From Magnetococcales bacterium (GTDB lineage: Bacteria; Pseudomonadota; Magnetococcia; Magnetococcales; UBA8363), in NCBI GenBank assembly GCA_002753515.1, contig PEAK01000023.1, positions 1 through 56,052 on the forward strand: DNA of 56,052 nt, written 5' to 3'. Below are positions 7,513 to 14,567 of this stretch, piece by piece. The translations under genes and the position numbers were made by a program. Position 1 is the stretch's first letter. Each line of letters begins with the position of its first letter. The notes beneath the pieces were generated by a model that saw nothing but the letters and a program-made list of their open reading frames with translations, had not been told where the DNA came from and did no database searches.

Positions 7513-10215
7513 ATGAGCGTGCCCGGTTTCCCCCCCAAGGTTGCCACGATCACTTTGGTCGTGTTCTCCGGCCTGATACCCGTGATGGTGTGGACATGGC
7601 TTGTCCTGGGACACGGGACTTCCGCCATCCTCGCCGATCAAAAACTGTTGCTGCAAAACCTGGTCGAAACCAAAGTGGCCCTCGTGCAGGGCACCATGAA
7701 CAAACGTTTGGCCGATGTGCGTCTGTTGGCCTTGACAGCACCCTCCTTTGAAACGGTCACCCCCCCTCCGCCACCTCCCGAACCCTGTGAAACACCCGAC
7801 GATACGCCCCCTCCCGCCCCACACGAAAGCATCGGGGAAATGGCCCGGGTCACCGATGTGGCGGGACCATTACGCGACAAGGTGACCACGTTGCTCCATC
7901 AATTCTTTCAGGATCAACTCAAACCTGTCAAAACACTCGCCAGTGACAGCCAGTTACCCATGAAGCTGGTGGGCATCGATTGGGTTTTTCGTAACCACAA
8001 GCGCAAAGCGGGTGGGGAAAAATGGCAGCAATTCGCCAAAACCTTCACCCCCGCCCTGGATGCTTTTGTCCAAGCCAATGCCTATGACGATCTTTACCTG
8101 ATTTCCGCCAGGGGGGATATCGTCTATACGACCACCCGTGGGCCGGAACTGGGGGCCAATGTTGACGAAGCCCCCCTGAAAGGATCGGGCTTGCAGCGGT
8201 TGTTTTCCCAGGCCAGCAAACAGGTCGCCCTGGAAGACATCTCCCCATACGGTGTGGGCGATGTCAAACCTGCCGCCTTTACCGGTGCCCCTATTGTCCA
8301 TGAAGGTCGGGTGGTTGGCATACTCGCCTTGCGTTTTGATCTGTCGAGCAGGTTGCAACACTATTTCGCCCCACATGCGTTGCCATTCGCCCTCATCGCC
8401 GCCGATGGAGAGACGCGCTACAACGATGCCGCGTGGACGCAACTGCCCGCAGCGGTACAAGCCCTGCAATCCCTGCCCCAAACCATCCGTGCGACGGCAC
8501 AAGGTGTCATGGTACCGGAAAATTCGGGATTTCAGGTCGCCTGGGATCATGTTCAAACCAATTCCCTCGACTGGACAGTTCTGGCCTCCGCCCCGCTTCC
8601 CGAAGCACCCCCGGAACAAACGACCCCGCCGAAACCCGCCCCACTGTGTCAATCCGTGGCCCCTCCGGCACCCCCGGTTGTCACCCCGTCCCCGGTCAAC
8701 GCCACCCCGGGCAAGGATTATCTGGCAATTACCGGCTATTATGATCTGTTCCTGATCCGCCCGGACGGTCACGTAACCCATACCGCACGCGGTCAGGAAG
8801 ATTTGGGCACCAATCTGTTGAACGGACCCTACGCCAATACCAATCTAGGGCAATTGGTGCAGAAGGTGTTGACCACCAAGAGACCCCAGGCCTCCGATAT
8901 CGCCCCCTATCCCCCCAGTCGTAACGAACCTGCGGCTTTCCTGGCCGCACCCGTCCTGGTTGACGGCCAAGTGGTGCGTGTCGTGGCGTTGCAACGCCCC
9001 CTGGAAGAGATGACCGAGTTGCTCAACCCGGGATCCCTGCTGGGCCCCAGTGGCGATGTGGTTTTGGTTGGGGAAGATTTTCGCATGCGTTCCGACTCGT
9101 TTCTCACCCCCCGCACCCATGGGGTGAGCGCCTCTTTTCAGGGAACGATAGCCGACAATGGCATGGATATCCCGCCGGTACGCCAGGCCCTCTCTGGCGA
9201 ACGGGGAGTAACCACCCTGTCGGATGCAAACGGGAAACGTCGGCTCGTTGCCTTCGCCCCGGTTCCCAGCGCCGCAACCACCTGGGCCTTGCTCGCCAGT
9301 CGCGATCTCCCCCCTACCACCGAATCGTTGTTCAAAAACGCGGCCTGGACCTGGAAAGCCCTGGCGATTGCCACCCTGATCTGGTTTGCCTTGTCCGCCC
9401 TTATGCTGACCCTCCTGCAGGGACGCCCTTGGAAAAAACTGGCCCTGGTCACGGGCAAACTTGCCAAAGGACGCGCCGAAGATTTGCCGCACCAGGATTG
9501 GGAAACCTGGCGCGATTCCCTGGAACCACTCCACCAGGTCGTGGAACGTTGTTTCCATCTGCGGGGGAAACTCAGTGCCAGATATCTGAAACTGGCTGAA
9601 AAATGGGCGCAAATAACCCGGCTGGTGACCAACAGTAGCGCCCAACTCCCAACCAAGGGACTCGCCCTGGAAAGCCTCCCGGATAGTACCGGAGCCGTAC
9701 TGGATGCCTTGGCGCGCTGGCAACAACTCCCGGCACCCCTGCCCCCCGAGGCAATCCTCAAGGAAATTGACGCCATCGGCCTTAAATTGACCAGTCAACT
9801 CACGGAGATCCAGGAAATAGCCAATCAGGTCGCTCTTTTGGCCAACAGCACGACAAACCGTCCCTCACGGACATCCGCCAAAAAATTTACCGTGGCGGAA
9901 TCTTTGGCAATGATCCACACCTCGGCCAACAAGGTTCAGGATTTGTGCCGCGCTGGCCTTGAGACCAGCCTCACCTGGAGGAAAGGCGTGCTGCGGGCGC
10001 ACCAGGGGACGAAGAGTGATGACATCCTGGCAACGCTTCTCAAACGGATTGAAAATTTGTTGAAGGTTCAATCCCGTCTTATCAAGAGTCATGAAAATTC
10101 CGACTTGGTCGTGGGCGATGACCTGCGCCATCTGGTTGCGGAAATGACCCAGCAATTGGACAAGTTGTGGCAAACCATTGAATCCCTGCCGCGAAAGGAA
10201 CACCCCCTTGGGTAA
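7513..10215 (+). CDS. Divergent methyl-accepting-type receptor with two Cache-like modules
   Basis: This 900-residue membrane sensor follows cheA by 58 bases. A first membrane helix (residues about 9-32) and a second at about 615-640 enclose a large periplasmic part. That part holds two Cache-like modules with parallel motifs: DLYLISARGDIVYTT with a later SPYGVG segment, and DLFLIRPDGHVTHTA with APYPPS. A proline-rich linker joins them. A HAMP-like stretch follows the second helix. The cytoplasmic hairpin tip is barely recognisable: EIQEIANQVALLAN resembles the start of the MCP core, but the usual alanine- and glutamate-rich tip is gone. It may be a receptor that no longer binds CheA/CheW normally. 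ATG 7513 is the first start after an in-frame stop at 7465. Confidence 0.75.
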   Translation: MSVPGFPPKVATITLVVFSGLIPVMVWTWLVLGHGTSAILADQKLLLQNLVETKVALVQGTMNKRLADVRLLALTAPSFETVTPPPPPPEPCETPDDTPPPAPHESIGEMARVTDVAGPLRDKVTTLLHQFFQDQLKPVKTLASDSQLPMKLVGIDWVFRNHKRKAGGEKWQQFAKTFTPALDAFVQANAYDDLYLISARGDIVYTTTRGPELGANVDEAPLKGSGLQRLFSQASKQVALEDISPYGVGDVKPAAFTGAPIVHEGRVVGILALRFDLSSRLQHYFAPHALPFALIAADGETRYNDAAWTQLPAAVQALQSLPQTIRATAQGVMVPENSGFQVAWDHVQTNSLDWTVLASAPLPEAPPEQTTPPKPAPLCQSVAPPAPPVVTPSPVNATPGKDYLAITGYYDLFLIRPDGHVTHTARGQEDLGTNLLNGPYANTNLGQLVQKVLTTKRPQASDIAPYPPSRNEPAAFLAAPVLVDGQVVRVVALQRPLEEMTELLNPGSLLGPSGDVVLVGEDFRMRSDSFLTPRTHGVSASFQGTIADNGMDIPPVRQALSGERGVTTLSDANGKRRLVAFAPVPSAATTWALLASRDLPPTTESLFKNAAWTWKALAIATLIWFALSALMLTLLQGRPWKKLALVTGKLAKGRAEDLPHQDWETWRDSLEPLHQVVERCFHLRGKLSARYLKLAEKWAQITRLVTNSSAQLPTKGLALESLPDSTGAVLDALARWQQLPAPLPPEAILKEIDAIGLKLTSQLTEIQEIANQVALLANSTTNRPSRTSAKKFTVAESLAMIHTSANKVQDLCRAGLETSLTWRKGVLRAHQGTKSDDILATLLKRIENLLKVQSRLIKSHENSDLVVGDDLRHLVAEMTQQLDKLWQTIESLPRKEHPLG

Positions 10216-10389: not shown

Positions 10390-11382
10390 GTGAAACAACG
10401 GCAGTTGATCAGCTTCGACTGGGCCTTGAAACGACTGCTGCGCAGCAAGGCCAATTTTGAAATCCTGGAAGGATTTCTCTCCGAACTCCTTCATGAGGAA
10501 GTGCTAATCGTTGAAATCCTGGAAAGCGAAAGCAATCGGGAAGCCCGTAATGACAAATTCAACCGTGTCGATCTCAAGATCAAAAACACCCGGGATGAAA
10601 TTATTATCGTCGAGTTGCAATACGAACGAGAGTGGGACTACCTGCAGCGGTTACTCTTCAGCACCGCCAAAGCCATCACCGAACACATGACGGAAGGTGA
10701 GCCTTACTCCAGTGTTGTCAAAGTCATCACCATCAGCATCCTCTATTTTGATCTGGGGCGTGGCAAGGATTATATCTATGTGGGCAATACCTCTTTCAGG
10801 GGATTGCACACCCGGGAAGAACTAGCGTTGGACGAAGGGCAGAAGGCTTTGTTTCAACGCCCCTCGGTAGCCGCCATTTTCCCGGAGCATTACTTGATCA
10901 AAGTGAAAAATTTCGACGATGTCGCCCGCGATACCCTGGACGAATGGGTCTATTTTTTAAAAAACTCCGATATCCGTGATTATTTTACGGCTCAAGGCCT
11001 GAAAAAGGCCAAAGAAAAGCTCGACGTCCTGCAATTGCCAGAAACCGAGCGCAAAGCCTACGAACGTTATCAGGAAGAACTGCATGACCAAGCAAGCTTT
11101 GTACTCTCCACCTATGGTGCCGGTAAATGGGAAGGGCGACAGGAAGGGCGACAGGAAGGGCGACAGGAAGGGCGACAGGAAGGGCGACAGGAAGGGCGAC
11201 AGGAAGGGCGACAGGAAGGAGAAACCGCACTCCTGATGCGCCAGCTACAACGCCGTTTTGGCAATCTGCCCGCATGGGCCAATGAAAGAATATCCAAAGC
11301 AAACCTGTCCTCCTTAGAGAAATGGAGCCTTCGCATCTTCGATGCCCAGTCCCTGGACGATGTTTTCTCGGACAATGTATGA
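10390..11382 (+). CDS. Rpn-family PD-(D/E)XK nuclease / transposase-like protein with RQEG repeats
   Basis: This 330-residue protein belongs to the Rpn/PDDEXK_2 family. Its known members are DNA endonucleases that promote RecA-independent recombination, or are linked to phage defence. The core motif is a metal-binding Asp in NRVDLKIKN followed by IIIVELQYE. A GTG start at 10390 after GAGGACC is used. Residues about 247-276 are seven exact copies of Arg-Gln-Glu-Gly. The last 50 residues form the family's C-terminal DUF4351-like tail (RQLQRRFGNLPAWANE). The same tail occurs in the gene at 13734-14567. It stands alone, with no toxin-antitoxin partner visible. Confidence 0.85.
   Translation: MKQRQLISFDWALKRLLRSKANFEILEGFLSELLHEEVLIVEILESESNREARNDKFNRVDLKIKNTRDEIIIVELQYEREWDYLQRLLFSTAKAITEHMTEGEPYSSVVKVITISILYFDLGRGKDYIYVGNTSFRGLHTREELALDEGQKALFQRPSVAAIFPEHYLIKVKNFDDVARDTLDEWVYFLKNSDIRDYFTAQGLKKAKEKLDVLQLPETERKAYERYQEELHDQASFVLSTYGAGKWEGRQEGRQEGRQEGRQEGRQEGRQEGRQEGETALLMRQLQRRFGNLPAWANERISKANLSSLEKWSLRIFDAQSLDDVFSDNV
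11131..11214. repeat. Seven exact 12-bp tandem repeats (gaagggcgacag)
   Basis: The unit gaagggcgacag is repeated seven times without a mismatch and encodes the RQEG tract of the Rpn-family protein. Because the unit is four codons, gain or loss of copies keeps the frame. Confidence 0.97.
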
Positions 11383-11641: not shown

Positions 11642-12250
11642 ATGCTGGCACGCATTCTATACATTGCCCTGCTTCTTGTTGCCGGTCTTGTCCATACCTG
11701 CCCCGCTGGCGCCGACACCACCGGAAAACCGACCCAATCAACCCAAACGACCGGAGCCCACCCCATGGTGACCCTCTCCACAAATCTGGGCGAAATCGTC
11801 CTGGAACTCGACGAGGCCAAAGCCCCCATAACTGTCAAAAATTTTCTCGAATATTTGGACAGTGGCTTTTATAATGGCACCATCTTTCACCGTGTTATCC
11901 CGGGTTTCATGATCCAGGGAGGAGGGATGCTCGCATCCATGGAAGAAAAGCCCAATGGTAATCCGATCAAAAATGAAGCGGATAACGGTTTGCTGAACAA
12001 TCGGGGAACCATTGCCATGGCTCGTACCCAGATCAAGGATTCCGCTACAAGTCAATTTTTCATCAACTTGGCCGACAACTCCTTCCTCAATCACGGCGGT
12101 CGCGATTTTGGTTATGCTGTTTTTGGCAAGGTTGTCAAAGGGATGGAAGTTGTTGATGCCATCGCCAAGGTCAAAACCGGCAACAAAGCGGGTCATTCCG
12201 ATGTCCCGAAGGAACCGGTCACCATACAATCGGCCACCCGTAGCCAGTAA
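11642..12250 (+). CDS. Cyclophilin-type peptidyl-prolyl isomerase, exported
   Basis: This cyclophilin isomerises prolyl bonds in secreted or outer-membrane proteins. The 202-residue form starting at ATG 11642 opens with a hydrophobic signal peptide ([17 protein letters not shown]). The open frame reaches further upstream to 11519, but that part is not family-like. The domain starts at [15 protein letters not shown]. The active-site motif [13 protein letters not shown], the strand TSQFFINL and the closing [13 protein letters not shown] are all present. It lies 14 bases upstream of the cyclase-like gene and may be co-transcribed with it. It is close to PpiA-type periplasmic enzymes. Confidence 0.92.
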
Positions 12251-12264
12251 TCTTCGGGGACAGG

Positions 12265-13590
12265 ATGAAGACCGTCGGTAAAACGTTTCTTTGCATGCGA
12301 ATCTTCCATGCCGAAGCGATTAAAAAACGCCTCGGCAGCCAGCAATGGGCCGAGTTGTTCTCCAATTTTCACACCTTGGCCACCGAATTATCAGCCCAAT
12401 ATGGGGGCATGATCGTCAAACTCTATGGCGATGGACTCCTGGCTGCTTTTAATGCTGTCGAACAAGGTGTGCAAGCTGCGGTCGTCATCCAGGAAAGCCT
12501 TCAGGAACACCCTTTCAGCCAACCTTTGTCCCTCGCCATGGGGATCGCCTCCGGGCAAGCCATCGCCATCCCCATCAGCAGCAGTCATGTCGATTATTTC
12601 GGTACCTGTGTGGAAATTGCCGAAGAACTCGGGCAAAAAGCCCGCGGTCACGCCATTCTCATGAATCATCCGGTCTTCCCCCCCAATGACAACATTGAAA
12701 TTCATTCCAAAGCGGGGGAAGCCAACCAGCGCCATGTACGTGATTATTTCGTCGAACAACCGATTTTCCGCATGTCGGGCTACAACAAACCGTTAACCTG
12801 CTATTCCGTCTTCTGGCAAAACGAACCTGCCCACTACCTGACGCAAAATCCCATCGAAGAGTATCGACCCCACCCCTTGGCAGAAACCCACAGCGAACGC
12901 ACCTACTTTGGTCGGGTGTCCGCTTTTAAAAAAGAGCGTGGCTTTGGGTTTATTCAATATTATTCGGAGGACGACATCTACAAGGAAGTCTACTTCCACA
13001 TGACCTACGTGATCGCCCAGGTTCCCATCGCCGAACATGATCATGTCCAGTTCGTTGTCCGGCCCGGCAAGGAAGAACGCCCCCAGGCCTGCTCCATACT
13101 CGTCATGGGCAGCCGCCTGCGTGGCGTGGTGGAATCCGTCCAACCCGATGGTGCCGGATATATCGTCCTGACGATCCACGACAACGATATCATCCGCTTT
13201 TTCATGCTGCCCCGGGAAAACCGCGACAATCGCTTCCAAGCCAACGAACCGGTCTATTTTACCGTAGGCTCTGGATCCGATATCGAAGGTTTGGTAGCCC
13301 TGGATGTGGAATCCGCCGCCGAACCGGAAACCCATGAAGACACGGATGCCTTGGGGTTACCCATCGGCTCAACACAACAGGCTATCGTGAATGTCTACTT
13401 CAGCGACAAGGGATACGGTTTTGCTAAATGTCGGCGTAACAACATTTACGTACATGTCTCAGAACTGGCCGACCCCAAGCATGAGCCCGCCCCGGGGGAC
13501 ATGATCGAATTTCGCGTCAGCCCTGGCCGGGACAGTACCTATCGCGCCAACGACATCCGCATTCTCCCCAAACACACCCTGGCCTTCTGA
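12265..13590 (+). CDS. Degenerate class III nucleotidyl cyclase domain fused to three cold-shock-like domains
   Basis: This 441-residue protein has an architecture I do not recognise as a named family. Residues 1 to about 185 follow the class III adenylate/guanylate cyclase fold: the YGDGLLAAF strand keeps the second metal Asp (D56), LAMGIASGQAI is the next strand, and VDYFGTCVEIAEELGQKA is the helix that normally reads VNxAARL. The first metal Asp expected near residues 8-12 is missing (FLCMRIFHAE), so catalysis is unlikely. Residues about 212-282 are a cold-shock domain with RNP1-like RGFGFI and RNP2-like VYFHM. Residues about 284-350 are a weaker copy, and 372-436 another with KGYGFA and IYVHV. 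The N-terminus may bind a nucleotide or dimerise, and the cold-shock part RNA or single-stranded DNA. Confidence 0.72.
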   Translation: MKTVGKTFLCMRIFHAEAIKKRLGSQQWAELFSNFHTLATELSAQYGGMIVKLYGDGLLAAFNAVEQGVQAAVVIQESLQEHPFSQPLSLAMGIASGQAIAIPISSSHVDYFGTCVEIAEELGQKARGHAILMNHPVFPPNDNIEIHSKAGEANQRHVRDYFVEQPIFRMSGYNKPLTCYSVFWQNEPAHYLTQNPIEEYRPHPLAETHSERTYFGRVSAFKKERGFGFIQYYSEDDIYKEVYFHMTYVIAQVPIAEHDHVQFVVRPGKEERPQACSILVMGSRLRGVVESVQPDGAGYIVLTIHDNDIIRFFMLPRENRDNRFQANEPVYFTVGSGSDIEGLVALDVESAAEPETHEDTDALGLPIGSTQQAIVNVYFSDKGYGFAKCRRNNIYVHVSELADPKHEPAPGDMIEFRVSPGRDSTYRANDIRILPKHTLAF

Positions 13591-13691: not shown

Positions 13692-13910
13692 ACTGGTTAC
13701 CGGAAAATTTGCGGAAAAGTCTCCTCGGTCGCGTCACATCTTATCTGAAAAAACATCGTCCAATAACTGAGCATCGAAAATACGAAGGCTCCACTTCTCC
13801 AAGGATGACAGATCTGCTTTGGCGATCATTTCGTTTGCCCATGCGGGCAAATTGCCAAAACGGCGTTGCAACTGACGAGTCAGGATTTTAGCCTCGCCTT
13901 CCTGTCGTCC
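13692..13910. repeat. Right arm of the inverted Rpn C-terminal repeat
   Basis: This is the counterpart of 11206-11428 in opposite orientation. It starts at ACTGGTTACCGG, downstream of the second Rpn-family stop, and runs into that gene as far as the single remaining RQEG. Confidence 0.75.
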
Positions 13911-14567
13911 TTTCACGAACAAATCTTTCAGAAAGTCATTTTCCATTACGTTAACAGTAATGGCCATTTCCTTTACCTCCTCACTGATCATCCACTCAAG
14001 TTTTCTCAGTCCAGCCAAAATTACCAACTGCTCCAAAGCATCAGCTTTGGCCTTCGGCCCCAGATTCGCAATCCTCCTCAAAATTGTCCGTATAGTCCCT
14101 CGCTCATCTGGCATGCGGCACAAGATGGCAAGGATGTTTTCCTCCATACTTCCGCTGGCCAACAAGACGCTACAATCCACATCTCGGATATTCCGCACAG
14201 TATAGCGGAAACTTAACGTTTCTTCCTCAATCCGATCTGGTAAAGACCGGCGCGCTCCATCACCCACGAACAAGACCAGCTGAATCAATCGAACCTTGGG
14301 GTACAGCCGCCGAATGAGCGCATAATATTCCACCATTCGCCAGTGCATATCCGCATCACCGCCACTTTGCAACTCCAGATGGCAGATATTTTCGTCTTTC
14401 AATCGAACCAGCAGGTCCGGCATGCGTTTCCTGATGGTTGGAAACTCCACGGTCAACAGTTCACGTGCTTCCTGGCCAATCAGCATGCGCAGCAGGTGTT
14501 GAGGCGGCGTCTGGAATATGAATTTCAGTGTTGTATCATAGTGATGTGGATGAACTCTATCCGTCAT
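13734..14567 (-). CDS. Rpn-family / DUF4351 protein, second copy
   Basis: This 277-residue protein belongs to the same nuclease superfamily as the gene at 10390-11382, but its core is quite different. Its PD-(D/E)XK-like motif reads RMPDLLVRLKDENICHLELQ. The final 50 residues match the other protein almost residue for residue (RQLQRRFGNLPAWANE, SLEKWSLRIFDAQ, LDDVFSD). Only one RQEG is present, where the other has seven. ATG 14567 is a normal start. The two genes point towards each other. The shared tail on unlike cores suggests module exchange or recombination between family members. Confidence 0.82.
   Translation of the reverse strand: MTDRVHPHHYDTTLKFIFQTPPQHLLRMLIGQEARELLTVEFPTIRKRMPDLLVRLKDENICHLELQSGGDADMHWRMVEYYALIRRLYPKVRLIQLVLFVGDGARRSLPDRIEEETLSFRYTVRNIRDVDCSVLLASGSMEENILAILCRMPDERGTIRTILRRIANLGPKAKADALEQLVILAGLRKLEWMISEEVKEMAITVNVMENDFLKDLFVKGRQEGEAKILTRQLQRRFGNLPAWANEMIAKADLSSLEKWSLRIFDAQLLDDVFSDKM

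Follow-up and report, generated by a model that had tools for sequence, protein, structure and literature searches.

What might a class III cyclase fold do in a protein that also carries cold-shock domains (CSDs) and has lost a metal-binding Asp of its catalytic site? The question is raised by an open reading frame (ORF) in a 56,052-nt stretch of Magnetococcales DNA (the window), for which an original prediction, made from the sequence alone, proposed a cyclase-like domain fused to three cold-shock-like domains, with the first metal Asp lost and the second retained, and with nucleotide sensing, rather than synthesis, perhaps controlling RNA binding. An ORF check of the window showed that this ORF is intact and that its predicted coordinates, strand and length are exact (Table 1).

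A cyclase fold followed by three cold-shock folds

The fusion protein is a class III cyclase fold joined to three cold-shock folds, as had been predicted, and the homology of the ORF is not a chance result because 34 full-length homologues are present across Magnetococcales. When the single sequence was used in phmmer, residues ∼8-141 matched Ma1120 of Mycobacterium avium with E=6e-10, and a profile of 22 homologues matched Ma1120 with E=5.8e-18, along with many other class III cyclases. Ma1120 was also the closest solved structure to the cyclase domain of the AlphaFold model in a Foldseek search (TM-score mostly 0.81-0.89, normalized by target length), and the window domain agrees with it in fold, in length and in alignment over residues 8-141. 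The Pfam Guanylate_cyc match alone scored 15-18 bits, under the cut-off of 21.9, so the identity of the domain rests on the profile and fold evidence. The same evidence (profile, AlphaFold and Foldseek) speaks against the possibility, raised by the original prediction as one that would overturn it, that residues 1-185 fold as something else.

The AlphaFold model of the whole protein (pLDDT 81.6) contains three beta-barrels after the cyclase domain, in a domain arrangement that is uncertain (pTM 0.47), and its top PDB match by Foldseek was Unr CSD456. The Pfam CSD family (PF00313) matched with 57.2 bits against a gathering score of 27, in two stretches of which the best covers residues 216-278, and it also matched all 34 homologues. 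Both CSD1 and CSD3 have conserved RNP1 and RNP2 motifs and the characteristics of PF00313. CSD2 has neither a Pfam CSD match nor RNP motifs and is a cold-shock domain by fold only; modelled alone, it gave a cold-shock barrel with a pLDDT of 93.6, whose best PDB matches were Unr CSD789 (2.6e-4) and CspA (4.1e-4), and this fold is conserved in the family without the motifs. The RNA binding suggested by the original prediction is thus plausible, judging from the RNP motifs, for CSD1 and CSD3 but not on the same grounds for CSD2, which lacks them.

The canonical, non-canonical, canonical order of the three CSDs is shared with Unr/CSDE1, and CSD2 is nearest to the CSDs of Unr and to those of the CspA type. 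In Unr, canonical and non-canonical CSDs alternate, and the non-canonical ones do not bind RNA alone and constrain the canonical ones (PMC7383231). However, Unr is a eukaryotic protein with nine CSDs, no cyclase domain and low sequence identity to the window protein, and the alternation common to the two is probably convergent. The family is an apparent bacterial case of the alternating arrangement characterised in Unr. The CSD effector of retron Se72 also resembles CSD3, with a score (31.7 bits) that lies far under the family cut-off of 82 and reflects generic CSD similarity.

Table 1. Coordinates of the fusion gene, its domains and key residues, the upstream gene and the plasmid-borne relatives.
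Feature	Position	Strand	Evidence or remarks
Whole gene: pseudo-cyclase (putative), CSD1, non-canonical CSD2, CSD3	12265..13590	+	441 aa
Class III cyclase homology domain, residues 1-183	12265..12813	+	phmmer, profile, AlphaFold model, Foldseek
R12, metal Asp 1 position	12298..12300	+	R 28, K 4, E 1, D 1 of 34
K52, aligns with base-contact Lys, K101 of Ma1120	12418..12420	+	K/R 33/34
D56, metal Asp 2 position	12430..12432	+	Asp 17/34
D110, aligns with base-contact Asp, D157 of Ma1120	12592..12594	+	D 30, E 3 of 34
E117, transition-state Asn position	12613..12615	+	D/E/Q in 34/34, Asn 0/34
E121, transition-state Arg position	12625..12627	+	R 6/34
Variable linker, residues 199-212	12859..12900	+	pLDDT <50 at 200-210
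CSD1, residues 213-280, canonical (RGFGFI ... VYFHMT)	12901..13104	+	Pfam, model, motifs
CSD2, residues 284-350, cold-shock fold without RNP motifs	13114..13314	+	model
CSD3, residues 370-433, canonical (KGYGFAK ... IYVHVS)	13372..13563	+	model, motifs
Cyclophilin-type prolyl isomerase, apparent signal sequence	11642..12250	+	upstream of fusion; ORF from 11519, likely start 11642
Cyclase-CSD-CSD, Streptomyces sp. NBC_01445 plasmid	L095:2887-4131
Cyclase-CSD-CSD, Mycolicibacterium crocinum plasmid	L098:3917-5143		WP_262871822.1
Cyclase-CSD-CSD, Mycobacteroides abscessus plasmid	L099:3917-5146		WP_158022956.1

Catalytic and base-contact residues across the family

Residue positions were referred to Ma1120 (PMC4215837), and residues were counted in the 34 Magnetococcales fusion members and in 18 control cyclases, among them a cyclase-FHA protein (L002) encoded in the genome from which the window comes. 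The window protein has the class III cyclase fold and, like Ma1120, keeps the Lys and Asp with which adenylyl cyclases contact the base, but it has neither the complete pair of metal Asp residues nor the transition-state Asn and Arg. The loss of the first metal Asp and the retention of the second, as originally predicted, were borne out (R12 and D56), although the extent of the loss had been understated, since Glu also replaces both transition-state residues (E117 and E121). All of the control cyclases carry the full catalytic set, with the exception of the transition-state Asn position, which is Asp in one protein (G019:C78) and Gln in two others. In comparison with Ma1120, the window family lacks the first metal Asp, is unstable at the second, has lost the Asn/Arg pair and is fused to CSDs. 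From these residues, the window domain appears to be a pseudo-cyclase that has lost what is needed for catalysis, and we infer that the window protein has lost cyclase activity.

The replacements differ in character from position to position. A basic residue (Arg or Lys) has taken the place of metal Asp 1 in 32 of the 34 members, while members lacking Asp at position 56 have S, E, P, K, N, G or R there, and the tree requires at least four changes at this position. Because the second Asp is lost in half of the family, it cannot be a general requirement, and the argument for nucleotide sensing that the original prediction drew from its retention does not hold. Weighted by lineage and scored by residue class, conservation reached 0.89 at positions 52 and 110 and 0.44 at the drifting positions 56 and 121. 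By the same classes, however, the base-contact positions are only moderately conserved, in 23rd and 26th place among 134 columns; the most conserved columns of the cyclase domain are structural (G48, F62, A72, G97 and A130), and in one lineage (f14) positions 52 and 110 have also been lost (to S and C). In L037, a member of the family in which D1, K, D2, D and R are all present, the catalytic set is broken solely by Asp in place of Asn; by its residues this protein could be active, so that the role may differ among members.

Pairwise dN/dS was ∼0.07-0.17 for the pseudo-cyclase domain and 0.00-0.08 for CSD1 and CSD3, as computed with our own Nei-Gojobori script and with dS saturated in several pairs. 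These low values indicate that the pseudo-cyclase domain is maintained by purifying selection and is not decaying. The CSDs evolve more slowly than the cyclase domain, and CSD1 and CSD3 are nearly frozen.

Distribution, relatives and origin

Of the 48 Magnetococcales genomes covered by a profile search, 34 have the full-length fusion; the search also recovered one fragment at a contig edge. It was not found in family f12 (three genomes, including one closed 4.7 Mb chromosome), in families f3, f4, f6, f8 and f11, or in one genus of f5, several genomes of the families without it being incomplete. Among ∼350 Pseudomonadota genomes outside the order, the listed matches of two profiles (A1 and A4) covered the cyclase part only. 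Peptide patterns applied to a large genome collection recovered Magnetococcales only, but these patterns were specific to the query and the result therefore sets no limit on the distribution elsewhere. Relatives were absent from IMG/VR viral contigs, and relatives of the mycobacterial protein were absent from phages. In the literature searched, cold-shock and cyclase homology domains were mentioned together only in one unrelated paper, Magnetococcales and cold shock in none, and nothing useful came up on class III pseudo-cyclases.

The architecture, which the original prediction did not recognise, is real but not unique. In a tblastn search of plasmids, a Streptomyces plasmid protein matched residues 6-300 of the window protein, and it led to relatives on Mycolicibacterium and Mycobacteroides plasmids that are annotated as "hypothetical protein"; the two Rhizobium plasmid matches inspected were set aside as cyclases without CSDs. 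An hhalign comparison of the Magnetococcales and actinobacterial families gave a colinear alignment of cyclase, CSD1 and CSD2 over 347 columns (prob 99.8, E 2.8e-30). At the catalytic and base-contact positions the actinobacterial proteins have D, K, D, D, D (for N) and R. They share Asp in place of the transition-state Asn with most Magnetococcales members but differ from the Magnetococcales family in keeping D1, K, D2, D and R, in lacking CSD3 and in being plasmid-borne, and the two annotated ones have no cyclophilin neighbour. Both mycobacterial relatives come after a DUF6290 gene, and on the M. abscessus plasmid an Abi-family gene lies ∼2.7 kb from the cyclase-CSD-CSD gene.

In the cyclase-domain tree, the Magnetococcales fusions, the actinobacterial proteins and G019:C78 were split from the control cyclases with support of 100/99, and G019:C78 clustered with the actinobacterial proteins (100/97). 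L037 diverged early within the fusion clade in both trees, but its branch was long and weakly supported. G019:C78 (L041:3820-5167) is a cyclase-CSD-CSD-like locus that accompanies the degenerate fusion (C71) in a Magnetococcales genome and is more intact than it. A KEQ-repeat stretch and 100 N interrupt this locus in the assembly, and we rejected its assignment as a stand-alone cyclase because CSD-like sequence lies past the N run; it is probably a cyclase-CSD-CSD gene. Downstream of this locus (L041:5180-5560), a 'ggaatcgggggacaccttacctatttcc'-like unit is repeated.

Homologues with a full catalytic set, which the original prediction had named as evidence against itself, nearly exist: L037, the actinobacterial proteins and G019:C78 have all of it except for Asp in place of Asn. 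Relatives of this kind speak for descent from an active-type cyclase and not for activity of the window protein. Given this kinship, the simplest account would be an ancestor of the active cyclase-CSD-CSD type that already had the Asn to Asp change, followed in Magnetococcales by loss of the RNP motifs from CSD2, gain of CSD3 and abandonment of the cyclase site.

Possible roles and the gene neighbourhood

The reading that we prefer, with a probability of roughly 0.5, is that the window protein is a cytoplasmic RNA-binding regulator in which a non-catalytic, probably dimer-forming and possibly nucleotide-binding cyclase fold controls the CSD module. The cyclase fold would no longer make cyclic nucleotide and would serve as a regulatory domain, which most likely pairs two molecules because class III cyclases function as dimers. 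Nucleotide may still bind through the retained base-contact positions, a basic residue having replaced metal Asp 1, and the state of the cyclase fold would then set the geometry or the availability of the C-terminal CSD module. Within that module, single-stranded RNA would be the ligand of CSD1 and CSD3, and CSD2, the non-canonical one, may serve as a rigid spacer in the way described from Unr. Nucleotide gating is plausible given the kept base-contact positions and the change of metal Asp 1 to Arg or Lys. There is a precedent in bacterial conflict systems, where several cNMP-cyclase domains that occur in fusions are inactive and have been proposed to bind nucleotide or to act dominant-negatively (PMC7159879). 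A narrower and doubtful version is that of a nucleotide-gated RNA chaperone, derived from a cyclase-CSD ancestor like the near-complete proteins of the actinobacterial plasmids, that thanks to the basic residue in place of metal Asp 1 reads the level of an (adenine) nucleotide without spending it and switches a clamp made of a non-canonical CSD between two canonical ones. If the regulator reading is true, cyclase pseudoenzymes on RNA-binding domains would tie cyclic-nucleotide-type folds to post-transcriptional control. On a common CSD scaffold, the family offers a series in which the change of an enzyme into a sensor or scaffold can be tested: the near-complete catalytic sets of the actinobacterial plasmids, G019:C78 and L037 contrast with members that lack them.

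The moderate conservation of positions 12, 52 and 110, below that of the structural columns, counts against the regulator and fits a pure scaffold equally. The main rival, which is possible although we would not bet on it, is accordingly a dimeric multi-CSD RNA chaperone whose pseudo-cyclase is a ligand-free scaffold for dimerisation or protein interaction. The prominence of structural columns, the lineage that has lost both base-contact residues and the faster evolution of the cyclase domain than of the CSDs are consistent with such a scaffold, but it would leave unexplained why only one of the 34 members departs from the residue class of the base-contact positions and why metal Asp 1 has given way to a basic, and not a random, residue in nearly all of them.

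It is improbable that the protein is a domesticated, inactivated descendant of a plasmid-borne, Pycsar-like anti-phage system (an active cyclase with nucleic-acid-sensing CSDs) that still acts in defence. PycC is a class III cyclase like the window domain, the colinear Streptomyces and mycobacterial plasmid homologues have near-complete catalytic sets, the Streptomyces relative (L095) matches PycC models (6.7e-16, 56 bits), and one mycobacterial plasmid has the Abi-family gene ∼2.7 kb away. However, the window protein itself scores only 18 bits against PycC, and it has neither intact catalytic residues nor an adjacent effector (PycTM or PycTIR); the conserved neighbour is a cyclophilin gene and not a cyclic-nucleotide-sensing effector, and wide conservation in the order under purifying selection is unlike typical defence genes. 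Least probable is a protein that is still a cyclase through altered chemistry, with one metal site and other general residues, and that takes the binding of RNA by its CSDs as input. Ma1120 is active despite Ala at the transition-state Asn position (PMC4215837), and L037 is short of that Asn only; against this, nearly all members, including that of the window, lack D1, most lack the Arg and half lack D2 as well.

In the window, the fusion ORF starts 14 nt past the cyclophilin ORF. As a rule the fusion gene comes straight after the gene of a secreted-type cyclophilin: in 19 compared loci (families f1, f7, f9 and f13; a few of these are one contig fetched twice), the adjacent upstream gene has the same orientation, is spaced by −4 to +24 nt and encodes a cyclophilin with an apparent signal sequence, and the commonest spacing was a 4-nt overlap. 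The pair looks like an operon, and translation of the two genes is likely to be coupled where they overlap. On both sides this pair is flanked by ORFs with near-identical C-terminal ends: the product of the first (10390-11382) is of the PD-(D/E)XK transposase family/DUF4351 (Rpn-like) and carries a (GRQE)n repeat, and the second (13734-14567) looks similar to it by eye. The window, over its 56,052 nt, contained no Rfam elements. Farther upstream, a 900-aa protein (7513-10215) with weak dCache and GAF matches is a possible sensor, and homologues of it occupy this neighbourhood in several congeneric genomes. Elsewhere in the window's genome, the cyclase-FHA protein (L002:1441-2331, contig G000:C17) has a full catalytic set and, by eye, adjoins a PP2C-like phosphatase ORF; similar cyclase ORFs of ∼300 aa occur in most of the Magnetococcales genomes searched.
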